A DNA stretch of 64,000 nucleotides, taken from contig NC_088790.1 in NCBI RefSeq assembly GCF_949628265.1, positions 18,728,545 to 18,792,544 on the forward strand. The letters are read 5' to 3'. Shown here piece by piece: positions 22,581 to 61,800 of the stretch. Position numbers and translations under genes: made by a program. The stretch is from Cloeon dipterum (taxonomy: Eukaryota > Arthropoda > Insecta > Ephemeroptera > Baetidae). Position 1 is the first letter of the stretch, and every line of letters starts with the position of its first letter. The notes beneath the pieces are model-generated. The model was not told where the DNA came from. It ran no database searches and saw only the letters and a program-made list of their open reading frames with translations.

Positions 22581-24134
22581 TTGTTAAAAATGTTTGAGTT
22601 TTTCCTAGTTCAAATTACTCAAAACTAAAACACAACTTTTTATGATTTTTCTCGTCTTCATAATAAAAAATACTTAAAGAGTTTACTTCTATCGCTAAGC
22701 ATATAGAAATGTATGTCTTATATTGTATTTCTATTTTGGTTTAAAAGGTCAAAATGACGTTATATAATGATCGATTGAGGTTATAACTGTGTAATTATCT
22801 TTTAAAATATTTTAAATTAAAGTTAATACGTTTTGAATAAATCCTACAATGCAAGTGTAAATATGGCGAAATTTTTAAAAAGCATAAAAATGTTTTAAGT
22901 AAAAAAATGATTTGCCTAGTTGACATGTTTTTGCTATTAAAACAATTTCTTTTGTTGATAAGCTCGTCAATTTTATTTGGATGATTGTGCATTAAATCAC
23001 TCAATCATTTGAAAAAACAGTTTCTTACCTTAAACTGAACATTTAGATTTCTATTTGCAATAAATGTAATCCCTTATAATTATTTTAACTTTATAGGCAG
23101 CAAAATGTGTATCCAAAAAATCCACCCGTGTTTCCAAACTGCACAACGTTCAATGGGCTATTAGGATTTGTTAAATATTTTCTTACATCAGTTAATTATT
23201 GTTCTTATTAAAAATTAAACATAACGCGTAAAGTGAAAAATGTTGGTTCATTATATCAGCCAGCATACACGATTTAACAATATAAAGATACAATTATTTA
23301 TATAGCACAGTATTGAAGAAAAGTAAGCGTAATAGTAATAGTAATAAAAATGTTAAATTTTGATCATATCAGTTGCTTGGTGGTCTGACTTTTGTTTTTG
23401 TTAAGTTGAAAAATAGCAGTACACAGAAAAATATTACTAGCTGCTCAGACGAAATTTACTGAGAGAAAGAATTAATAGAAGCATATATGATCGTTTTAGG
23501 TTTTGATTTGAATGCATCACATAGTATACATTCAATTTTACATGCAAATTTTTGCGGCACTTACAAAATTTTAGCGGTTATTGATATGAGATCACATTAA
23601 TGTCATTTTATTCCCTGTAAATATGCCACTTCAAACGTTCTGTAAAAATATATACACACGTCGTTGACAAGAAAAGGGACTCGATTGGAAATAGGATATG
23701 CAGCATTCCAAAATTCATAAAGCGTAACGCATGTGTTTGTGTGGAGTCAACAAGGTTTTGCATTCAATGCAGATATTAACAAATTTGAGGAACTGTGCTC
23801 ATGGTTTCCAACCACCCACGCAAACCAGTGAAGAATTACACACTTGAGAATGAAACTATGATTTAGCTGAGGCTTATTGCGGCATGTGAACCATTCTCCA
23901 GCATTTTGCATTTCATTTGTTCCAGCGGCATGGCTTATAAAATAAGTGATGCTTGATGTGTAGCTGCCAAAATCACTCAAATTGCTTCAGTTTGCACAAA
24001 AACTGACAATATAAATGACTTGTGCCTTAATCGTGACTTTTGAGTTAAATGGGCAAATTAAAAACCAAAATAGTAAATTGGACTAGATTGAAATCATAAA
24101 AGTACCCACCAAACAATAGCCCTAAGGAAATATT
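22581..24134. other. AT-rich intergenic stretch; holds the likely GalNAc-transferase 3' UTR
   Basis: No coding sequence is recognised here. A minus-strand AATAAA at 23,612-23,607 lies about 0.5 kb beyond the transferase stop codon and is a plausible polyadenylation signal. Confidence 0.5.
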
Positions 24135-25243
24135 TCAAACATCTACCAAGTACCATGTGTATAATTTTCGGTACACCATCTGCTTGAGCTCATAATTCAA
24201 ACTGTTGAGCCCATCAGACTTAAAACGGTCTCCCCCAGAATTGAGTTTTTCGAGCCGAGACTGGCTTGGCACCTCCTTTTTGTGGCTCAACATGTAATAA
24301 CGGGCCACGGGAGGCTCAAAACGGTCAATTTGCATACCCTGTTCAACAATGCGGTTATGGAAGTCGTCATCTTCGCCACCCCAGCCGTAAAAAACATTGG
24401 AAAAACCATTCACAGACTCGAACTGCTCCTTCGTAATGGCGACAGCACCACCAAAGATACTTGAATAAGGCAAATTGTATCGAAACGTGTTCACGCTGAC
24501 CGTCATGTGTCTGGGATTGGTTGAGCAGGCGTAAATGTTGGACAGCTTCTGGGGCAGCAGGTCGACGTCGTGGAAGACGAAACACTCACTTTGGCGATCA
24601 GCCTTTAGAGACTCGGCGAATCCAACGTTAAACAGTTTGGCTCGGTTGAATGGGGTGTTGGCCACCTGCTCGACCACTACAATGTGGTAGTCGATCATTT
24701 GCCTCTGTAGGAACGCGTGCATGAAGTTTAGGAAGGTATCCAGGTGCTCGCGCCGGTCCCTGACAATGTTAAAAAAATATTTAGCATATTCCTCTATGAT
24801 GACAGGTTATCATTTACTAAGAAAAAACATATCTACAGCATAAATTAAGTCATCGTCTTGAGAAAACATGCTAAAAAGGCACCTATTTTCGTTAAAAATA
24901 GCTATTATTTTGTTCACCTGTATGGTATAATGATTGTTGTCTCGTATTGAGCCTTGCAGTCTTTTGGGGACCACTTCCCGTTCTCCACGGCCTCGAGGTC
25001 AGCTTCCTCCGCCCACGTTGGGTACAGCAAAACATCATCCTCGTCAGATATGCTAAAATTGCATAGATTCGGTCCAAATTGATGAGGGACTAGATTCTTC
25101 TTAATGTCTTCTTTGTAAATGCGTGGGTACGTCTCCGAAGCGAATCGGCCGGGATGAATCAAATAAACAAAGATGCCGATGACTGCCATCCATCGTAGTA
25201 GTTGGATGATTTTTCTCCAGAGATAGCTGCGACTCAGAGCCAT
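24135..25243 (-). CDS. beta-1,4-N-acetylgalactosaminyl/galactosyltransferase (GT7 family), 2 exons
   Basis: This Golgi type II enzyme adds a beta-1,4-linked GalNAc or Gal to a terminal GlcNAc. Exons 25243-24918 and 24759-24135 join in phase (316 residues). A short cytoplasmic tail and a signal anchor of about 20 residues (LLRWMAVIGIFVYLIHPG) lie near the N-terminus. The catalytic domain starts at ETTIIIPYRDRREHL. GT7 marks present are FNRAKLFNVGF, the metal-binding DVD in FVFHDVDLLP, GWGGEDDDFHNRI, and the SDGLNSLNYE segment near the C-terminus. In LPYSSIFGG the residue equivalent to bovine galactosyltransferase Tyr289 is Ile, which favours UDP-GalNAc, so an insect beta4GalNAcT-type enzyme is inferred. 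The start at 25,243 is the first in-frame ATG after an upstream in-frame stop. It is not B4GALT7-like, since it has WGGEDDD rather than WGREDDE. Confidence 0.93.
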
Positions 25244-25301
25244 GTTTTCTTGATTGCTCAATATCCTCGAGTGCCGATGATAACAACACTCCTTCACTCA
25301 T

Positions 25302-26239
25302 AGTAAATACAAAGTCTGTAAATGTATGAACATTTGATATGAATTAATAACATGATCAACATGAACAAACAAAATGACTTACAAACATTTTAATTCATAA
25401 CAGCATTCTTTCCTTGATTGGTACATCTTGGTTATGTATGAAAATATTTCGTTGTGACAATAAAATGTGTAAAATATATATTATAACCCTCAGATTTGAA
25501 ACACAGATAAATTATTGCTTCTCTTCAAATCGATTAATGCTTCCTGTGTCCCAAGCTGGTCCCAAGTCCAAATCGACCAAATCGTCTCTGGTTCTGCAAT
25601 CTTATCTCGGGTAATATTTGTTTACAAATGCAGCACATTCACAAAATATCATGCGCGATCATGCGTCAGCAGTCCAATTCATTAATATGTATTTTAGTCT
25701 TGTAGTATGGTGTGATCTTCTGGCTATTCCGCTCCTGCCTGCGCAGTACAAAAAAATAAATAATATTAACCGATTGTGGTATTTTTTGTTTGTATGTACA
25801 TAGCTAATTTAGTATTATGAGTAATATGAACTTTTATTGCTAATGACCACACTGTATGTATAAATTATTTATCATATCAAATTGAAAATTAATAGAGATC
25901 AAAAACTATGTACATACTTGTATGTAATGTATTTGATTGGAAATTTAATCAAAATTGTTTAGATTTACGACTTACAATTGGAGCGATTGTTGAACCGATC
26001 AATTAAACTAACCGCGGTTTCATTAGTAAACAAGGCATCAAAAAATCGTCTACATTCAAAGAATGTAAATCTTAAATTTCGCGCCATCGCGTTGAGTCAC
26101 ATGGTGCAGCCGTGTTTTGTCATTGAGTTTCACTCTCGGTGCCCCTTGGTGGCGCTGCTGCTGTTGCTGCTCTCCTCGTCGTCGGCCATTTCTAAACCGC
26201 ACACAGCAATCGGCGGCGTGTTTTTAGTTAAAATCGAAA
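25302..26239. promoter_or_regulatory. Divergent intergenic region between the glycosyltransferase and RpL18A
   Basis: About 0.9 kb separates two head-to-head genes. The left part is AT-rich and featureless. From about 26,080 the sequence is GC-richer with pyrimidine-rich stretches (for example CTCTCCTCGTCGTC near 26,170). This suits the promoter and 5' UTR of a ribosomal protein gene, but I could not fix a transcription start. Confidence 0.45.
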
Positions 26240-48894: not shown

Positions 48895-50806
48895 CTTATG
48901 AGTGATGCTAAGTTAAAATTAAAAACACATACCTGAATTTCTGTGGAATCAAACATGACTCCTAAGTAAATGAGGTGGAAGAAAGCAAGAATTCCAAATC
49001 CAATGTTTGCTAGCAGCACAATTAGTTTGGTCTCCTTGTGCGTGTGGGGGCAGTTGGCACGACACGGCTTCGAAAGGATGCAGGCATTGAAGACCGAGGC
49101 CAGCTTTTGCCGCAGCATGAATTCAACGTATGTGTACACGCCCAGAGAGAGCAGGACCGCCGCCAGCTGGAAGTTGATCCCGTGAAGCAGAGAGCTGACG
49201 GCGTATGTGCAAATGATGGCCACGAAGCTGCCAAACGGGCGCGTTGTTCGAAAAACGTCTGAAACGACAAATCAGAGGGAGTCAGAGAGAGTTGTAATTG
49301 GCATGTGCTTTTTAGTGGTATGATATTGATCTTTCAATTAATGAAACGTGAAAATCTTATCTGAGAAAAAACTGTAGAACTTGAAAGAGGTATAAGGATG
49401 AACTAAATCTCTAGTTTTCAAGAAAATCATTAAAGATTCATTTAAATCTAGAAATTTATCATAAATTCCTCATCCAACCAGTAAAATAACACTTACATTG
49501 TTTTAAAAATGTGTGCATTGGCATGCTCCAGTAGACGACGACCTGGACCAGAGACCTCGGGATTTCAATATGGTGCGGTCTGGAGACTGGCACGCTCCAG
49601 GTCAAGTCCTCTTGCAGTCCATAGCCTGCCATCAAAGCAGACGCTTCCGACACGAAAGATACAAAGTAGTGACTAGAGCGGAAGGAAACTGCGTCTCGAT
49701 AGGCGGTCCACCATCTGCAGTTGACGAGGGTAATTAATAATTGCAACCATGGGATATTCGGACCAGAGCTAAATGAGACAAAAAAATTCACCTCCAAGCA
49801 TCATCGGGAATCAGCCAGCTTATCCAGCACATTGAGACAGTCAAGAACAAAAATGCCATTGCTAAGCTCAATAAAATTCTCCACAGCCATTGCAAGTTCT
49901 ACAAAATCAAATCCATTGAAAGCGATTTTCTTGATATTTTCTGCAATTTTTTCTTAAAGTAACTTACAAATACGGGCTTTTTGTAAACTGCCAGGTAGTC
50001 CCTGAAAGGAACCCAGGGTCCGAAAATGCATGTGCCTACAGAGAAAATGTAGCCAGCGAATTCCACAGGAGATGGCAAGGTGCGTTGTGTGCCCATTTCC
50101 ATGTCAAACGCTAGTGAGATCACCTAAAATGATAATAAAACATGAACAAAACAGCTTGTACTTATTCCCCAGGTTCCATACCTTCATAACAACAATCATG
50201 TGGGCACCCCTGATTTTGTGCCACTCAGTCTTTTTCACAAGCAAAAACTCACTGCAATAGTTACAAAATTTATAAGTTTTAAACTACACACAATTTCCCC
50301 CTGAACTCTTACCAAAGGATGGAGATAACAATGCAAGAGACACTGGTAACAACACCAACCCACTTGTTGAGGGAGAAAGAAGTGAAGAAGAGGATCAGGT
50401 AGAAAATGATCCCTAGCACTAAGACATAATGGGCTGTGGATCCAAAAAAGAAATTGAGAACCAGCAGCCCACTCGCAGCTGAAATGGCATGGCACGCAAC
50501 CACTGGAAGTTTTACTGGAAATGCAATTATTGTGAAAATTTTACCACTCTAATGCTAATTAGTAATTAAAATTATACCTGTTTGTGTGGTGATTCTAAAG
50601 ATAAAGCACCAAAGGAGAAGATAAGCGACGTGAACAATGCCTTCGGACACACTGGGCAAAAGGCAAAGGCTGTACAATTCAGACAGGGACACTCCTGCAC
50701 CCTCCTCCTCGTCCGACCAGCCGTCTGAATGTGGATAGCCTTGCTCGTAGCTGCCGTAATAGTCTTCCTCAAAGTTTTCATTTTCATAATCAGAAAAGTC
50801 TTCCAT
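48368..50806 (-). CDS. por: Porcupine, Wnt O-palmitoleoyltransferase (MBOAT family), 8 exons
   Basis: Porcupine is an ER multi-pass acyltransferase that attaches palmitoleate to a conserved Wnt serine, which Wnt needs for secretion and receptor binding. Exons 50806-50578, 50514-50313, 50251-50182, 50123-49968, 49898-49792, 49714-49497, 49258-48933 and 48472-48368 join to 470 residues (human 461). The N-terminus is acidic (MEDFSDYENENFEEDYYG). Hallmark segments are MKVISLAFDMEMG, LPSPVEFAGYIFSVGTCIFGPW, FRSSHYFVSFVSEASALMAG, SRPHHIEIPRSLVQVV, and SSLLHGINFQLAAVLLSLG with the MBOAT catalytic His near residue 353. Next come LSKPCRANCPH, HLIYLGVMFD and the C-terminal KWAHLSYASHWV. Where human has WLNNYVF this protein has FLKQYVF. 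The gene diverges from NitFhit. No defect was seen. Confidence 0.95.
48850..48889 (+). repeat. A40 homopolymer in porcupine intron 7
   Basis: This is an uninterrupted run of 40 A. It could be the tail of a short retroelement, since TTAGTTCTC precedes it and GAGAACTTA follows it as an inverted match. It could equally be slippage. No element body was recognised. Confidence 0.85.
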
Positions 50807-51316: not shown

Positions 51317-53747
51317 ATGAGTCGACCAGCTCAAATTCTACTGTCCGCTGTAAGAAAAATGTCACACAAAACAAGGATCGCTGTGTGTCAAATCAACGCG
51401 AAGGCTGACAAGGAGGAGAATTTCAATATTTGCAAGAGCTTGATTGAGGAGGCTGCCAACGCTAAAGCTCAGGTTTGTTTTTTATTATAATGGACTCACG
51501 CTATCCGCTCACTTAACACTTCTCGGTGTTTGATGGGAAGAATCAATGTTTTTGCCCGAGAAGTGTTAGTTTCTCGAAAAGTGTGAGAGTCCTCCATTAT
51601 ATGCACATTTCTCTATTTTTGACCTTTTGCATCAGAAACATTTTTGCAGATGGTGTTTCTTCCGGAGGCTTGCGACTACATTGCTGAAAGTAAGGAAGAA
51701 ACCTTGAAGCTGTCTGAACCTTTGAACGGCACCCTGATAGGACAGTACCAGACTCTTGCTAAAAAATTAGGAATCTGGCTCTCTCTGGGGGGTTTTCACG
51801 AGCGAACGGAAAATGACAAGATGCATGTGGCGCATGTCATTTTCAACAGCAAAGGAGAGATCGTTTCGGTTTACAGAAAAGCCCATCTCTTTGCTTTTGG
51901 TGCTCTTGATGAATCCAAATATATTGTACCAGGTAAAATTAAAATTGATAATTTCGTTACATATATTTTCAAACACTTATTGAGGGTTTCTATAATTTTC
52001 AATCAAATAATTTTTTGAAGGAAAATTTCAGAAAAATATAATTGTGGATTGTTCTCCTGTGTGATCAAATTTATTTTCCTCTTTGCTCTGAAAGAGTTGA
52101 TTCAGATAGTAAAATGCAGTACATAAAAAATCCAAAATCATTTGAAGCTGCTCTTGATTTGTCATTGCAAATTTAGTTCGAACATTTCAGAAATTTTATT
52201 TTATTTTTCTTGCTCTCGCAGGTTCAAAGGTGGAGGAGCCAGTTGAAACTCCTGTAGGCAAACTTGGCCTATTGATTTGCTATGACCTGCGGTTCCCGGA
52301 AATTAGTTTGCAGCTGCTATCAAAAGGAGCCGAGATTCTTACCTTTCCCTCGGCATTCACGGCAGCCACTGGACAATCACACTGGGAATCCCTGTTGCGG
52401 GCGAGGGCTATAGAGACTCAATCATACGTGGTGGCTGCTGCCCAGACAGGTTGTCACGGTGGCAATAGGAACTCCTATGGCCACGCCATGGTAGTTGACC
52501 CTTGGGGCGCTGTTGTGGCTCAGTGCTCTGAAGGAACGGGACTCGCCCTCGCGCAGGTGAGTTCCTTTTAATGTTTCATGAAAAATTGAAATTGGTTATA
52601 ATTTCCACGCTTTAATTGTTATCTCATAAATAAACTTTAGCTTTCGTTTCAAATTTTTAAGCGTGACATTATTTGATAACGTCCACACTTTTATTTTTTT
52701 TTCATCGATTTTCTTATTTATTATGGCATTTTGTTTGAGTCAAAATAATTATTTTTACCGAGGACCCCTATCCTCCATATGACCCAACAACATAAAATCA
52801 GGAAAATCGACGAACAAAAATTTTAAAATTCCAGATGATATCAGAAGAGACCCAACCATAAAAAGTTGATGAAAGAATATATTTGTTTTTTAAATTGTGC
52901 AAAAATGAATTATATAAAAAAAAATTAGAAAATAAAAATGTCAGCGAAAATTTGCAGTTTGAAGCGTAATTTTTCTACTTTTCATATTTTTTGTAGGTTT
53001 CGGTATTAGAGTGAGAGTTAGTGTTGTTATCTGGATTTCAGATTGATTTGGAATCCTTGAAGTCGATAAGAACCAGAATGCCAGTCGTTGAACACCGACG
53101 GCCGGATTTGTATCCCACCGACCTGCGAGGACCAGTGCACTCCCCAGCAAATGAGGAGATATTCACCTTTGGTCAGGTTAAGGTGCTAGGAGCGTCTGTT
53201 GTGGCAAAAACCGCCCTGACCATCGCATTCACCAACAAGAAATGTGTAGTTCCTGGCCGTATCCTTTGATTAAACTAAAGTTAGGCGTTAGGCCCACGTT
53301 GATGATTCATTTCCTTTACAAATACGCTCTGTAGATATGCTTTTGGCTCCAATCCGTGTGGCAGAGAGGCTCAATGACCTGACACCTGTTGAAATTGCAG
53401 ACCTGTTTCAGTTGGCTCGAAAAATACAGCACGTGATGGAAAAAATTCATGGAGCGTCTTCTTCGACTCTAGCCGTGCAAGATGGGCCAGAGGCTGGACG
53501 GACAATCAAGGTTTTAATTTCCACTGTCTTTGCAATCAAATTTTAACCAATACTTTCTCAGCACGTTCATGTTCATGTGATGCCAAGAAAAAAGGACGAC
53601 TTTAAATGGAATGATGAGGTTTATCGTGAACTGGCGAAGCATGACAAACCGGAAGACACAGGGAGATGGAGAACTGAAGAAGAAATGGCAGATGAAGCAA
53701 AAAGCATTAGATTGGTTTTCAGAGAATGTGGATTCTTTGATAGCTAA
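51317..53747 (+). CDS. NitFhit: NitFhit: nitrilase-Fhit fusion, 6 exons
   Basis: The protein fuses a nitrilase-family amidase (Nit1, which deaminates glutathione) to FHIT (diadenosine triphosphate hydrolase, tumour suppressor in mammals). Exons 51317-51472, 51650-51932, 52222-52556, 53042-53258, 53335-53510 and 53562-53747 give 450 residues, close to fly and worm NitFhit. The nitrilase triad is Glu58 (FLPEAC), Lys129 (YRKAHL) and Cys166 ([11 protein letters not shown]). The join is near [14 protein letters not shown], and FHIT then starts at [12 protein letters not shown]. The HIT motif HVHVHV is at about 389-394, preceded by [13 protein letters not shown]. The C-terminus [12 protein letters not shown] is complete. 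The start at 51,317 gives a short basic leader ([14 protein letters not shown]) that may target mitochondria. A second ATG at 51,359 (MSHKTR) has better context and gives a cytosolic form. The last intron is only 51 bases. Exons 5 and 6 are duplicated downstream. Confidence 0.96.
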
Positions 53748-53766
53748 CAGCTTATATTTTCTATAT

Positions 53767-53772
53767 AATAAA
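53767..53772 (+). terminator. AATAAA polyadenylation signal of NitFhit
   Basis: The hexamer lies 20 bases past the NitFhit stop. It is also present in the duplicated copy near 57,582. Confidence 0.65.
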
Positions 53773-54839
53773 CTGATCTATATTTTCACCTCTCGGTGTA
53801 ATTTCCAGCTAAACTTTGCCTTTCGGCTTGTACAAGCGTTGCGGTACTTTTACTTTATTTTTAAAATCGGTAGGAAGTCGAGTTGAACAGTGTGCTAAGT
53901 TAATTAGGACTACACATTCAAATTTTATTTACTTTCTAACATAAATCAAGTTTAATAATTTTATTGTGATTCTTGTGATTTTTAGTTAGTATTATAATGA
54001 CTTATTAAAACAACTTTTTAATGGACTAAATTTGACAATATTTTTTAACTCGGCAGCTTCAAAATATAAGATTGGGTGAATTTCCAAATTTCAGTGCCTT
54101 GCCTATAACACAGTTAAAAAGCATTTTTTTTTGTTTTGTTAAAACGCCCTTGAAGTGTACTTCTTATTGGAAACAATAAATAATAGCTCATCATAAAAGT
54201 AACAGGAAGAGTTTCACACCACGCTATTTTGGGCCATTGGCCCATTTTCACGCGGCGTTGCAGGAAGTCTGCCTGCATATATTTATATATGTGCAGTAAA
54301 CTAAACACATAATAGTGCAGCATTTTGATTTTAGGTGTAGTTTCAATAAGTTACGCATAAAAAAGAAAAATCCTTTTTTCACGCGTTTTCAAACAAACGT
54401 TAGGTATTTACAAAAGGCATACAAAAATAGGAAAAATACATAAAAATTATAAAAAATATTGAAATATTTATATTTAATATAATGTTCAATTAATCCTGTT
54501 ATTTAATTTTTAAAATGGTGGCACTTCATAGCATCAATATAATAGGATTCCCACACGTCGACCTGCGTTCTCATATTTAATGCCTTTGTATGCATCTTGC
54601 CTACCAGCAGTGGAAATGAGTGGAGAAAAGACGCGAGCAGGCGGCAGGCGAAAAGACCAAAAGGAGCGTTCTGAGAATGAAAAGAAAGGAGCAAGGCGAA
54701 GCGAATGGAATGAACGCGGTGGCGGCAACATCATCTATCCCGCCGCCTGTCACGTGACCAGGCAAGAGATACAAACAGTCAGAAGCAAGGTGGCTGCTAT
54801 CGAAGGTTGGCTACGCGTGGTATTTGTTGATCTTGCGAG

Positions 54840-55242
54840 ATGCAGCAGGAGAGCGCCGAATCTTCGGCCAAGGAGGCTTCGCCTAAGCAGGAAAATCCGT
54901 CTCCCGCCCGACAGCAGGAGAACGGCGGCGCCGACGAGCCTCCCCCGCCGCCGCCGCCACAGCAGCATCCGCCGCCAACGCAGCCCCCGGGGAGCGTCGA
55001 AGCGCCCGCCAACGGGGCACCGAGCCCCCGCGAGCCCGAGGAGGGACAACCTCTGCCGAGCAATGTGCTGCCTAAGCAGCAGCAGCAACAGCAGAACAAC
55101 GAGTTTCTGCAGCAGCAAAGCAAGATTTTTGTCTTTTCGACGTCGCTGGCCAACCAAGGTGCCGAGGCTGTAATCCAGAGGCAATTTCCGTCCATCATTT
55201 CCTTCCACTGCGCCCAACCAGGCACGAAGCAAGTATCTTGAG
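54840..55242 (+). pseudogene. Copy-A BCL9 first coding exon, frameshifted by one base
   Basis: This exon is nearly identical to the one at 58,894: MQQESAES start, proline run, polyQ, and the HD1 stretch KIFVFSTSLANQGAEAV. One extra A at about 55,231-55,232 changes GTKQYLE into GTKQVS followed by a stop, so the original donor (GAG, GTAATA) is no longer in frame. The insertion places a GT directly after CAA (CAA then GTATCT). If used as a donor this would keep frame with exon 60,610 and lose only YLE. It is therefore either dead or a rescued alternative first exon, and dead is more likely since copy B is intact and closer. Confidence 0.7.
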
Positions 55243-55350
55243 GTAATATTCAACATTTCGGTTGATTTTCGTATGTGATTTTTAAAAAATTAAATCGTCT
55301 TTGCAACATACTAGCATTAGTTAAATCATAATTTTGCGTCAAGTTTGACG

Positions 55351-56272
55351 TCGTCAACTGGTCTGAAATGCACGGCCTGAAACTCAATCCACGCAAAACA
55401 AAGGTGCTGTTAGTGGGCTCTGAGCGGCAACACTCCCGCGTACAGCTCGACTCAATCGGTAAAGTTAAAATTAAAGACAATGAAATTCAATTTAGCGATG
55501 AGATTGAGTTGCGAGAGGTTGAATTCGAGTTCAGCGAAAATGTGAAAAACCTAGGCATCGTTTTTGATAAAACCCTCTCCTGGCATGGCCAAGTTTCGCG
55601 AATTTTTCAAAGAGTTTACGGCACCTTAAAAAACTTACAAAAATTTTAGAAGCGTAACCCCAGAGAAAATAAGAGTGCAACTTGTTAAGAGTTTAATCCT
55701 GCCCCATTTTGACTATGGCGATATTGTGTGTTGTAATCTCAGTACCTGTCAATTAAATAAGCTACAAATACTGCAGAATAATGTAATTCGTTATATTTAT
55801 AATGTTAAACGTGGCCAAAAACTGTCTGATCTCTATAAAAAATGTCAAATATTAAATGTAGTCGATAGGAGAAATCTGCACTTGTTAGTGCAGACACACA
55901 AAATTCTGTACAAAAATTGTCCGCCTTATCTGTGCCATTTAGCAACCAAAATGTACGATGTAAATCTTTTTGGCAGGACAAGAGCGCATCAAATGAAACT
56001 ACTGGCCCCATTTGTAAGTGTTGAAGTGCCCGAAAACTGTTTTCAAGTGCAGAGCTACCGCCTCTGGAACAATCTTCCGCCGAATTTGTGTCTCAACGGA
56101 AACCAAAGTGCATTCAAGGAATTTTTAAAAGAACAGTACCTCAAGAAATATTGAATCACCTCTCTTTTATACATTTATACAATTATGTTCAAACTGATAT
56201 TATTTTGTCTGGATATGGCAATGTATGGGGAAAAATAGCCCTGCAGAACCATAATAAAGATTACTTTGAAAC
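55351..56272 (+). mobile_element. 5'-truncated non-LTR retrotransposon fragment (reverse transcriptase C-terminus)
   Basis: Translation gives the end of a LINE reverse transcriptase. It begins inside the palm/thumb part (HGLKLNPRKTKVLLVGS, VKNLGIVFDKTLSW), shifts frame near 55,645, then continues LVKSLILPHFDYGDIVCCNL, LQILQNNVIRYIYNVKRG and CFQVQSYRLWNNLPPNL to a stop at 56,154. The empty site in copy B near 59,405 (TTTGACGT then AAAGTGCCC) shows the boundaries. No clear target-site duplication. Jockey-like in style; the clade is not certain. Confidence 0.85.
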
Positions 56273-56411
56273 TAAAGTGCCCAGGTACTGGCAGTATAAA
56301 TTGGCGAAACCTTTCTGGAAAATTGATCAAAACAATCTAGCATTACCGCAATGGTGTGGGATTAATTTTTAATTGATTCGTTGGGAGCAATGAATAAGAA
56401 TGATTGGTCTT

Positions 56412-56956
56412 CAGATTCAGATTGTATTTTATTTTTGTTTAAGTCGATATTTACATTTGTGACTTATTAAAAACACGTCATACTAAGCCTAACTATACAA
56501 CAAAATATTGCTATACATAAGCTATTATTCTAATGCAAAATCACAGACATAATATTCAGAAAGATTATAGAATTGGTGTTGCATGACAATTCTCTTAATA
56601 GATTTAAGAAATAGTTGATCGTCCAACATCATTTTGAATTCAACTGGTAAAGCATTAAAAAGTCGTGGGATCATGATTGTTGGGCTTTGATTAGATATGG
56701 AGAGAGAACACGGCGCTACATAGAGATCATTGGGACTAACATTTTTGCCTACAAAACGCGTATTGGGTCTATCAACTGGCTTGTCCTGCGCTAATGCAAA
56801 TTTACTCCTATTTTTTATCAGGTATTTCATACATTCGAAAATATACAATGAGTACACAGTCATAATTTCATATTTTTTGAACAGTGGCCGGCAAGAGTCG
56901 AGGGCACGGTTTTTCCTCCAGTATCTCATACCAGCCATAGCTCTAACAACTCTCTT
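56412..56956 (-). mobile_element. Second non-LTR retrotransposon fragment, inverted
   Basis: On the minus strand an open frame (56,938-56,525) reads CRPLFKKYEIMTVYSLYIFE and IMIPRLFNALPVEFK, the extreme C-terminus typical of insect LINE reverse transcriptases. It differs from the neighbouring fragment. The element is absent from copy B at about 59,541. TCTT flanks it on both sides (56,408-56,411 and 56,953-56,956), a likely short target-site duplication. The 3' end carries a doubled AATCTG. Confidence 0.8.
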
Positions 56957-57148
56957 GTTAATCTATAATAATTTTCAGTTCGCTCCTCACTTTTTCATTT
57001 GAAAAGAGAAAGCTGATTAAGGAACATAGCAAAAAAAAACTCCAGGAGAACTAAAAACTTTGAATCTAAAAATTAAAATATTTGTCTCAAACTCTAAACT
57101 CTCTCTTGATTGATCATATTAAATCCAGATTTAAAAATTTCTCTGTAG

Positions 57149-57562
57149 ATATGCTTTTGGTTCCAATCCGTGTGGCAGAGAGGCTCAATGACTTGACACC
57201 TGTTGAAATTGCAGACCTGTTTCAGTTGGCTCGAAAAATACAGCACGTGATGGAAAAAATTCATGGAGCGTCTTCTTCGACTCTATCCGTGCAAGATGGG
57301 CCAGAGGCTGGACGGACAATCAAGGTTTTAATTTCCACTGTCTTTGCAATTAAATTTTAATCAATATTTTCTCAGCACGTTCATGTTTATGTGATGCCAA
57401 GAAAAAAAGGACGACTTTAAATGGAATGATGAGGTTTATCGTGAACTTGAGAAGCATGACAAACCGGAAAACACAGGGAGATGGAGAACTGAAGAAGAAA
57501 TGGCAGATGAAGCAAAAAGCATTAGATTGGTTTTCAGAGAATGTGGATTCTTTGATAGCTAA
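57149..57562 (+). pseudogene. Broken duplicate of NitFhit exons 5 and 6
   Basis: Exon 5 copy 57149-57324 is intact in frame, with two substitutions (LLVPIRV, LSVQDG). The exon 6 copy 57376-57562 reads HVHVYV, so the third histidine of the HIT motif is Tyr. It also has seven A instead of six in MPRKK, shifting the frame and creating an early stop. There is no nitrilase part, no first exons and no obvious promoter. It is a relic of the tandem duplication. Confidence 0.88.
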
Positions 57563-57670
57563 CAGCTTATATTTTCTATATAATAAACTGATGTATATTT
57601 TCACCTCTCGGTGTAATTTCCGGCTTAACTTTGCCTTTTGGCTTGTACAAAGCGGTGCGGTACTTTTAAT

Positions 57671-57722
57671 TTATTATTAAAATTATTAATTTATTATTAA
57701 AATTATTAATTTATTATTAAAA
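57671..57722 (+). repeat. 20-bp minisatellite, about 2.6 units
   Basis: The unit TTATTATTAAAATTATTAAT occurs twice in full plus 12 bases. Copy A has only a single related sequence at the equivalent place, so the expansion is specific to copy B. Confidence 0.8.
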
Positions 57723-58664
57723 TCGGTAGGAAGTTGAGTTGAACAGTGTGCTAAGTTAATTAGGACGAGGCACGTTCAAATTTTATTTACTTTCTAACAT
57801 TAATCAAGTTAAATAATTTTACTGTGGTTCTTATGATTTTTAGTTAATATAATGACTTATTAAGACAACTTTTTAATTGACTAAATTTGACAAAATTTTT
57901 TAACACTGCAGCTTCAAAATACAAGATTGGGTAAATTTCCAAATTTCAGTGCCTTGCCAATAACAAAGTTAAAAAGCATTTTTTGTTTTGTTGAAACGCC
58001 CTTGAAGTGTACTACTTATTGGAAAGAATAAATAATAGACCGTCATAAAAGTTACAGGAAGAGTTTCACACCACGATATTTTGGGCCATTGGCCCATTTT
58101 CACGCGGCGTTGCAGGAAGTCTGCCTGCATATATTTAAATGTTTGCATTAAACTAAACACAAATAGTGCAGTATTTTGATTTTAGGTATAATAATATATT
58201 TGTGTTTCAATAAGTTACGCTTAAAAAAGAAAAATCCTTTTTTCACGCGTTTTCAAACAAACGTTAAGTATTTACAAAAGGCATACAAAAATAGGAAAAA
58301 TACATGAAAATTATATGAAATATTGAAATATTTAATATAATGTTCAATTAATCCTGTTATTTAATTTTTAAAATTGTGGCACTTCATAGCATCAATATAA
58401 TAGGATTCCCACACGTCGACCTGCTCTCTCATAATTAATGCCTTTGTATGCATCTTGCCTACCAGCAGTGGAAATGAGTAGAGAAAAGACGCGAGCAGGC
58501 GGCAGGCGAAAAGACCAAAAGGAGCGTTTTGAGAATGAAAAGAAAGGAGCAAGGCGAAGCGAATGGAATGAACGCGGTGGCGGCAACATCATCTATCCCG
58601 CCGCCTGTCACGTGACCAGGCAAGAGATACAAACAGTCAGAAGCAAGATGGCTGCTATCGAAGG

Positions 58665-58893
58665 AACTCGCGCTAGCTGTAGGTGATTAAGCGTGCTAGC
58701 GCCGGAAAATGATCACATGCGCCGCCTGTCCAGGTGAGTGAGTCCTCAGCAGGGTCGGCCAGACCCTTGCGGGTCGGCGCCGGTTCGGCCGCGAGTGCGG
58801 TCTGCTTGAAAAACGGAGTCTAACCCGAGCGTGCCCATAGCATCCGAGGTGACATTGGTGCGGGCGACGCGTGGTATTTGTTGATCTTGCGAG
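58665..58893 (+). promoter_or_regulatory. Candidate core promoter/5' UTR of BCL9, retained only in copy B
   Basis: This CpG-rich stretch sits directly upstream of the BCL9 ATG. 202 bases of it are missing from copy A. It contains a donor-like CAG followed by GTGAGT near 58,733. Retention next to the intact coding exon, and loss next to the frameshifted one, suggest it matters for expression. Confidence 0.35.
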
Positions 58894-61800
58894 ATGCAGC
58901 AGGAGAGCGCCGAATCTTCGGCCAAGGAGGCTTCGCCTAAGCAGGAAAATCCGTCTCCCGCCCGACAGCAGGAGAACGGCGGCGCCGACGAGCCTCCCCC
59001 GCCGCCGCCGCCACAGCAGCAGCCGCCGCCAACGCAGCCCCCGGGGAGCGTCGAAGCGCCCGCCAACGGGGCACCGAGCCCCCGCGAGCCCGAGGAGGGA
59101 CAACCTCTGCCGAGCAATGTGCTGCCTAAGCAGCAGCAGCAACAGCAGAACAACGAGTTTCTACAGCAGCAAAGCCAGATTTTTGTCTTTTCGACGGCGC
59201 TGGCCAACCAAGGTGCCGAGGCTGTAATCCAGAGGCAATTTCCGTCCATCATTTCCTTCCACTGCGCCCAACCAGGCACGAAGCAGTATCTTGAGGTAAT
59301 ATTCAACATTTCGGTTGATTTTCGTATGTGATTTATAAAAAAATAAATCGTCTTTGCAACATACTAGCATAAGTAAAATCATAATTTTGCGTCAAGTTTG
59401 ACGTAAAGTGCCCAGGTACTGGCAGTATAAATTGGCGAAACTATTCTGGAAAATTAATCAAAACAATCTAGCATTACCGCAATGGTGTGGGATTAATTTT
59501 TTAATTAATTCGTAGGGAGCAATGAATAAGAATGATTGGTCTTGTTAATCTAAAATAACTGTCAGTACGCTCCTCACTTTTTCAATTGAAAAGAGAAAGC
59601 TGATTAAAGAACATAGCTAAAAAAACTCCAGGAGCACTAAAAATTAAAATATTTGTCTCAAACTCCAAACTCTCTCTTGATTGATCATATTAAATCCAGA
59701 TTTAAAAATTTCTCAAATGAAAGCTAAATTCAATTTGTTAAATTATCTATCTTGATGCAAGTACTCTGTTGCTAAGTGATTAGATTGCTCTTTGAGTGGC
59801 GTCCGCCGGTTTTGATTTATAATCCTAAATTTTTTTTCTAATGATGTGTTTTGCCTCTCAGGCAGTTTAAACTAAGACTTTTTAATCATTTCCACGTTAT
59901 TATCTTAATATTATGCACTTCATTCTTATCTATTTACCTCCATCTTTATCAGCAAACTTAAAATTATTTTTAAAAAATTCTGCAACCAAATATCGATTCA
60001 AATCAAGAGGTTTAAGATGAAAATTATGTTACTATCAAATAAATACTTATCGCTTAGGCCAAATACGTCGGTTTAAATATAAAATCTTCTCTAGGACTTC
60101 CTTTTCTATTATCTTCAAATATTATTTTTTATTTTTACATGAGAAATTATAAGCGAGTAGTGTAGTCAAACTGCTCTTTCAACGTCAATTTTTTGGCCTA
60201 GTTAATCATTATTGAGCTGTATAGGTTTAGGTCTATTGATCAAATAAATTTTTGATGCACTGATTTATAAGTTATATTGGAGACTTGAGGTCAATATTAA
60301 GGTGATTAACGTAGCTATTAATTCACTTATTTATGTATTAGACTGAAATCTATTTTATTGTAGGTCCCTTTCCTTCAGACCTGGATATTATGTCTGTTAT
60401 TTGAATTATTTCTAAATTTTCAAATACTCACATGAATTATCATTCCATCCCCAGAAATGCACAACTGATTCTTATTATGTCAAGCAAAGGAATTATATTG
60501 ATATATTTATTTTGCAACCCTAAATACCATCAAAAACAAAAAGTTTCCCAAAAAATTATAATCAAGGAATAATAATTATGTCACTTAATAATTAATATTT
60601 CATTTGCAGAAAAACCCACTACGCACATCACAATTTACCCGGCAGCCATGGATGTCAAAACGATCGTCTCTCGCCGGCGTACAGGTACCTGATGAAAACC
60701 TCACACCCCAGCAGCGCCAACACCGAGAGGAGCAACTGGCCACCCTTCGGAAGATGCAACAAATGTTGTTTCCTGAGCGGCCGCCCCCCTTCCGCTCCGC
60801 CTCAGCCCCAATTGCCTCGCCTGGGGCACCAGCCTCCCCGGCGGGCCACTCATTGCCGGCGGCCAGCCCAAGTACGCCACTGGCAGGCGCGTCACCCTCC
60901 CCTGGCATTAAAAAGGAGCCGAGCCTGATGCCAGTGCCGTCTCCTCAGCAGATTCAGTATTTGGCCTCCTTTGAGGGCCATGAGCTCACAATACAGCGGC
61001 AGCCAAACACGGGAATCACTGATCCCCATCTTTTATCACCGTGAGTGGCTTTCCTTTTTCGCTTGTTTTCATAATATTAGTATGCTCAACAGTCTGATAT
61101 ATTTTCAAGAGTAAAATCGTTTGCCAGATGATCAAAATGCCAAAAGCAATGAAAGTATTGGAGATGTTGAAGATAAGGCTCTAAAATATATTATTTCTGA
61201 GTTTCCAATTTCCATGGGAACACCAAATGAGTAGAAATCTTTTAATTCTTAGCATAACTTATTTTAAACCATTCAATTCAATTCATTTATTTGACTTTTA
61301 GCATGGTAATACATTTTTGTAAGATTGACTTGTGGTTTGAATTTCTTATCTAAAAAGTATTTCTGTTCAGTTTTCCAAGCTATATTTAATGTCTCTAAAA
61401 AGCTGTTTCTCATTGGATTAAATGACTAGTTAATTCTATTTTTATTCCTATTCATTTTTGCAATGTCTTTCCTGGGTTTCAAGTAAAATCGGAAGTTACA
61501 GTTGTTGGTGAGGAGGCATCATTGGACTTCGCACATCCGCATTATTTGGTCACTATTATTGTTGGGCACGAGCATTGATGGCTTTACAAAGGGTTCTTTC
61601 TGAGAGAAATGAATCACCCCAGGAAAGAAATCAAAGCATTTAGTTTGAGATGACGATGACTTAAGCTAATAACCCTTCAATTCAATGGCTGAAATTACTG
61701 CACACATTCTTGTCTAGTAGTATCCAGTTATTTGGTTAAATTTCCCATTAGATGAATTGTGATTTTTATCAAGTAAATGGCTAAGTTCTCCATTTTTTTT

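Follow-up and report, generated by a model that had tools for sequence, protein, structure and literature searches.

In the 64,000-nucleotide stretch of Cloeon dipterum DNA analyzed here (the window; C5:18728545-18792544 of the assembly), the boundary between two neighboring genes, NitFhit and BCL9, is present twice (Table 1). Self-alignment of the window, a check that the initial annotation had suggested for this region, recovered a single pair of copies at E<1e-10. These copies, A and B, lie head to tail as direct repeats on the + strand and align as five collinear pieces, and the ends of the two segments, together with the CTC that they share at the junction, fall to the base where they had originally been placed. 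There is good support for a genuine tandem duplication that crosses a gene boundary, with the copy contiguous with the rest of the gene being kept on each side.

Table 1. Features of the NitFhit–BCL9 locus. Positions are those of the window; for the alignment pieces, the position in copy A is followed by that in copy B.
Feature	Position	Strand	Remarks
NitFhit upstream nitrilase-domain exons	51317..53258	+	Pfam; start codon uncertain
Copy A of the duplicated segment	53327..57143	+	Self-alignment
Copy B of the duplicated segment	57141..59714	+	Self-alignment
CTC common to both segment ends	57141..57143	.	Junction; 3-bp microhomology
Alignment piece 1	53327-53867/57141-57683		96.5% identity
Alignment piece 2	53850-54806/57706-58664		92.5% identity
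Alignment piece 3	54809-55351/58863-59404		98.2% identity
Alignment piece 4	56273-56411/59404-59543		95.7% identity
Alignment piece 5	56953-57143/59540-59714		87.4% identity
NitFhit exon 5, copy A	53335..53510	+	Kept; first of the last two exons (our numbering)
NitFhit exon 6, copy A	53562..53747	+	Normal stop; HVHVHV motif undamaged
BCL9 exon 1 (coding part), copy A	54840..55242	+	Extra A near 3' end; stop at codon 134
First LINE-like insertion, copy A	55352..56272	+	5'-truncated; family match spans 55347-56276; copy B empty near 59404
Second LINE-like insertion, copy A	56412..56952	-	Copy B empty at 59540-59543
NitFhit exon 5, copy B	57149..57324	+	Splice acceptor kept; differs from copy A at 2 amino acids
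NitFhit exon 6, copy B	57376..57562	+	His to Tyr in HIT motif; extra A; frameshift
Putative dead hybrid	54470..57562	+	From layout: copy A BCL9 exon 1 with its promoter-side DNA, then copy B NitFhit exons 5-6
BCL9 5' flank/5' untranslated region stretch	58665..58862	+	In copy B only; one genomic match
BCL9 exon 1 (coding part), copy B	58894..59295	+	Open; joins exon 2 in phase
BCL9 exon 2	60610..61041	+	Single copy; Pfam BCL9 domain

The first of the two genes has the order of domains that defines NitFhit, namely a nitrilase domain and, after it, a HIT domain bearing HxHxH. Two of its upstream exons match the nitrilase family PF00795, while the last two match FHIT chains of solved structure as well as the Nit-FHIT fusion chain 1ems. 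The Pfam match to the HIT domain lies in exon 5, and the motif HVHVHV is located in exon 6, which matched no Pfam family when searched alone. BCL9 is recognized by its second exon, which matches PF11502 (E=6.7e-17, profile positions 1-27 of 39), a domain listed at one place in the genome search. Exon 1 was assigned as the N-terminal exon of BCL9 from its phase, which fits exon 2, and from its apparent similarity to the BCL9 N-terminus. Other HIT-domain places in the genome (G000) are found at C1:16134004-16134341 and C5:14850821-14851078, and the same search lists exon 5 of copy B from the window and not that of copy A, despite their near-equal direct scores. The nitrilase exon of NitFhit matched five loci in viral-collection records.

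The DNA-level genome searches took in the assembly of 190,111,064 bases in 10 contigs. The FHIT exons and the intergenic DNA occur there at two places, both at this locus, and BCL9 exon 1 occurs at two places at the locus, with one weak 51-bp match elsewhere. The flanks are single-copy where tested (53042-53326 and 59715-61100, one genomic match each); a control stretch at 24000-25400 also had one match, and the window contains no N. (The matches listed in the genome searches all fall on five of the 10 contigs, C1-C5, which would fit the 2n=10 given for C. dipterum in PMC6446309.) Copy A is longer than copy B by 1.24 kb, which is the net result of two inserted repeats less about 196 bp of 5' flank. 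The breakpoints lie within two genes and placed a BCL9 5' end ahead of a NitFhit 3' end; since both genes are on the same strand, the duplication broke neither of them. The gene order, NitFhit and then BCL9, was kept, and the spacing alone changed: the distance from the FHIT stop to the BCL9 ATG is now 5,146 bp, while it is 1,092 bp within copy A and 1,331 bp within copy B. From these distances, the genes were shifted apart by about 3.8 kb, close to the 4 kb originally estimated.

What has become of the two copies? In copy A, the FHIT exons are open to the normal stop and encode HVHVHV. In copy B, the motif has become HVHVYV (CAT to TAT), after which an additional A within an A homopolymer shifts the frame. 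The first exon of BCL9, on the other hand, is intact in copy B and has a one-base insertion in copy A, about ten bases ahead of the exon end; 133 codons stay open, and the donor site is kept. The reading frames thus bear out all of the lesions named in the initial annotation, which had described an intact FHIT and an interrupted BCL9 exon in copy A and an intact BCL9 exon in copy B, where FHIT had suffered a frameshift and a His-to-Tyr change. The possibility that copy B provides alternative last exons to NitFhit was rejected, as the read ends early.

A further difference is found just upstream of the BCL9 ATG, where about 196 bp (net) that are present in copy B are missing from copy A. The stretch found only in copy B has one match in the genome and is GC-rich (61% GC), and for these reasons a deletion from copy A would be likelier than an insertion into copy B. 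An inserted repeat or ribosomal RNA fragment was rejected on account of the single genomic match; a comparison of 58600-58920 with Rfam found no family at E<=1. At 58731-58742, the stretch holds CAG/GTGAGTGAG, which is presumably close to the splice-donor consensus, and BCL9 may have a non-coding first exon, the donor of which would have been lost from copy A. Nearby, at 58645 in copy B, is the word AAGATGGC, corresponding to AAGGTGGC at 54787 in copy A. The copy B word, which is YY1-like, occurs twice in the window (both strands counted), so that it is suggestive only.

The two remaining large differences, both in copy A, act as time marks. Deletion of the corresponding DNA from copy B was considered and rejected, since the extra stretches are dispersed repeats with common 3' ends that fall at the difference between A and B. 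They appear to be long interspersed nuclear element (LINE)-like, judging from the 5' truncation, the common 3' ends and a reading of the frames; when three LINE reading frames were compared with Pfam, there was one weak match only, to an unrelated family and below the cut-off. The first insertion had 42 matched genomic rows, with the best 40 of 402 first-look candidates scored, and the second had 40, with the best 40 of 55 scored, own copies included in both cases. The 3' ends of the first family were inspected in 14 of 29 fetched relatives: 13 of the 14 stop at CTAAA, beyond which the flanks are unrelated, and one stops two bases earlier. The 5' side was inspected in seven relatives that extend past the start of the element in copy A, six of them sharing all 60 upstream bases and the seventh approximately the last 20. 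Copy A has none of the upstream bases common to these relatives, and its element is a 5'-truncated insertion. The second insertion is bordered by a 4-bp TCTT repeat, with a single TCTT at the corresponding site in copy B.

Because copy B retains both empty sites, the insertions came after the duplication. The first insertion differs from the consensus of 12 relatives at 8/921 positions, well under the approximately 2.8% that each copy would have accumulated (half of the non-coding divergence), which also makes it later than the duplication. If the rates are comparable, it perhaps entered in the last third of the time that has passed since then. Among the 12 relatives compared, two differ from the consensus by 2/921 and a further two by about 3/920; near-identical copies in this family (55352-56272, relatives L011-L039) suggest recent activity. 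In the second family (56412-56952, relatives L041-L069), several of the 12 copies inspected end in TTCAGA repeats, as read on the + strand of the window. Neither BCL9 exon 1 nor the first LINE piece has relatives in viral contigs.

How would this arrangement have come about? Very probably, a tandem copy made across the boundary left both outer genes whole and produced a single hybrid in the middle, which then decayed. About 2.6 kb, beginning barely within the last-but-one intron of NitFhit and ending in BCL9 intron 1, would have been copied in tandem, presumably through end-joining or a replication-template error. NitFhit still finishes in the exons and poly(A) signal nearest to it (copy A), and BCL9 starts, as before, from the 5' flank and first exon next to the rest of the gene (copy B). 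Between them, an extra unit has arisen, with the BCL9 5' flank and exon 1 of copy A placed upstream of NitFhit exons 5-6 of copy B. This hybrid retains splice sites, and a poly(A) signal follows at 57582. However, its junction would join phase 0 to phase 1, leading to a stop 15 codons past the junction even with intact pieces. Being out of frame at the new splice junction, the hybrid was probably dispensable from the start and would be without function today. Since then, about 196 bp of its 5' flank would have been lost, its intron would have received the two LINE-like insertions, and its exons would have accumulated two frameshifts as well as the His-to-Tyr change. The three differences of more than 100 bp (the 5' gap and the two insertions), both frameshifts and the His-to-Tyr change are all located within the hybrid. 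Copy A in its current form stops ahead of the junction, at codon 134, and there is no open frame across the junction. An in-frame BCL9-FHIT fusion was rejected, as fusions end early. A fusion via a putative cryptic donor after 55232 also ends early.

The initial annotation had described the locus as a case of reciprocal decay. There is indeed a broken frame in one copy of each gene part, but two independent losses are not needed to explain it: the decayed BCL9 exon of copy A and the decayed FHIT exons of copy B are halves of one hybrid, so that a single decay suffices. The CTC had been interpreted as a sign of replication- or end-joining-based origin. The 3-bp microhomology is present, but as evidence of mechanism it is weak; a hand calculation suggests that approximately 6% of random joins at this base composition would show at least 3 bp.

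The comparison of coding and non-coding divergence that had been proposed was also carried out. Non-coding DNA outside the promoter-side region differs at 65/1179 positions (5.5%), FHIT coding sequence at 7/365 (1.9%) and the coding part of BCL9 exon 1 at 4/400 (1.0%). Promoter-side DNA differs at 10/372, which is lower than the other non-coding DNA (P=0.026). The coding changes are five amino-acid-changing and two silent in FHIT, and three and one, respectively, in BCL9. Pooled, the split is 8:3, and the coding ratio is 0.75. If the ratio is held in both copies, the probability of eight or more amino-acid-changing differences among 11 is 0.0017 at a ratio of 0.1 and 0.038 at 0.2, while a model with one neutral and one constrained copy fits the split well (P=0.46). 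The coding changes thus suit relaxed selection better than they suit two healthy, strongly constrained alleles. We infer to which copy the individual substitutions belong.

Several observations weigh against a middle hybrid that has simply decayed since its birth. If both copies are held at 0.3, a split of 8:3 would not be out of the ordinary (P=0.14). BCL9 exon 1 carries fewer differences than neutral drift confined to copy A would predict (P=0.021, or P=0.0044 if silent change is allowed in copy B); FHIT shows no clear departure from the same neutral expectation (P=0.23 or 0.089). Silent sites are also low, with 3/167 differing versus 65/1179 (P=0.037). The low divergence of BCL9 exon 1 might stem from a period of constraint on its copy A, which would then have been lost late, from a lower mutation rate in GC-rich coding DNA or from conversion. 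In addition, exon 5 of copy B scores higher than that of copy A against Pfam HIT (29.0 versus 28.1 bits) and against the FHIT chain 1fhi (51.0 versus 50.1), while it is lower against the NitFhit chain 1ems (48.6 versus 50.2). Given these scores, not every difference between A and B indicates decay of copy B, and the score differences do not show which of the copies changed. Finally, the difference next in size is intergenic and falls beyond the hybrid, near 57666-57705, where copy B has 40 additional bases. These 40 bases are made up of repeated TTAATTTATTATTAAAAT-like units.

Could the two copies instead be diverged haplotypes of a single-copy locus that were joined head to tail in the assembly? 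A non-coding divergence of 5.5% would be extreme for alleles, and the coding differences are mainly amino-acid-changing; each haplotype would, moreover, hold one broken gene. The tested flanks match only once each. False duplications of neighboring gene parts are nevertheless on record, for example ALDH2 exons in ACAD10 (PMC9516828). By the same source, false pairs are most often separated by gaps and sometimes joined by sequence without read support, whereas the window is without N. The locus resembles such a false heterotype duplication in having adjacent, near-identical copies of gene parts, but differs from those described there by the lack of a gap, the higher divergence and the relaxed coding change. 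An uncollapsed haplotype is an unlikely source of the copies, and misassembly carries little weight as an explanation of the locus. Gene conversion, which would have partly homogenized the exons and promoter, also appears quite improbable. The region 54470-55242 is less diverged than the rest (14/772), and when all sites are binned, the differences are somewhat uneven, with 142/2000 shuffles reaching the observed variance. However, non-coding DNA alone is no more uneven than the shuffles (936/2000, or 1692/2000 when 54470-54839 is left out), and the frameshifts are not common to both copies.

The other alternatives assume a longer or continuing use of the middle unit. It is conceivable, if on the whole not likely, that BCL9 exon 1 of copy A served for some of its history as a second, distal first exon, being lost only lately, and that decay was staggered, FHIT in copy B being lost early and BCL9 in copy A late. 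This would fit the lower divergence of BCL9 exon 1 compared to FHIT and non-coding DNA, which is below the expectation for an exon neutral since birth, as well as the retention of its donor site and 133 open codons and the less diverged promoter-side DNA. On the other hand, the difference between BCL9 and FHIT is not significant (P=0.37), the BCL9 changes are 3 amino-acid-changing to 1 silent, and the downstream FHIT acceptor and poly(A) signal, both of which are seen, would be expected to intercept the transcripts. It is very improbable that the middle unit is still transcribed from the copy A 5' flank to yield either a short N-terminal piece of BCL9 (133 codons) or a hybrid BCL9-FHIT RNA able to tune Wnt signaling or NitFhit, although this, if true, would account for the exon divergence of 1.0% next to 5.5% in non-coding DNA. 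There is hardly any reason to believe in a working chimeric gene: the splice sites and poly(A) signal are kept, and such chimeras often alter expression in Drosophila yakuba (PMC5460883), but the frames mismatch at the junction, copy A stops earlier, and the 5' flank is short by about 196 bp.

The decayed hybrid, on the favored account, has counterparts elsewhere. The D. yakuba chimeras, as described in the 2017 study (PMC5460883), likewise stem from tandem copies with intragenic breakpoints that join a gene's 5' end to its neighbor's 3' end. Those, however, are polymorphic and often changed in expression, while the locus described here, read from DNA alone, has diverged by 5.5% in its non-coding DNA, is joined out of frame and carries lesions. 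Partial and chimeric gene duplicates, reviewed by Katju in 2012 (PMC3449122), are similarly incomplete gene copies. According to that review, many copies of this partial kind may lead nowhere in evolution; it also cites 10% chimeric duplicates, spanning two adjacent genes, in natural isolates of D. melanogaster. The present case differs in that two neighboring partial copies came from one event, which can be read with the help of insertions as time marks. Mitochondrial duplication-random loss (PMC5745709) also involves a tandem copy spanning neighboring genes, one copy of each of which subsequently loses its function. Here, by comparison, the duplication is nuclear, the genes are partial, the order is unchanged and only the spacer grew. 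The choice of copy to be lost also looks predictable, since the middle unit is without the remainder of either gene.

The locus is thus a clear and well-preserved case of a known class, in which ordinary genome evolution has been caught partway. It provides a compact example, complete with insertion time marks, of the aftermath of tandem copying across two same-strand genes: the outer frames are kept and the hybrid breaks down, leaving as its durable mark a widened spacer that contains pseudogene fragments. The locus also raises a testable asymmetry. A first exon that is copied takes its 5' flank with it and may persist for a while; a copied last exon, by contrast, is situated beyond a poly(A) site and may be lost immediately. 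The present data hint at such an order, in which the first exon lingers, but do not establish it. A literature search found no title on this locus among the open-access papers listed.

On the other side of NitFhit, a gene on the minus strand (window ~50500-50806) seems to start about 0.5 kb before it, so that the two are arranged head to head. From a reading of its first exon, this neighbor is a putative YIPF-type membrane protein.

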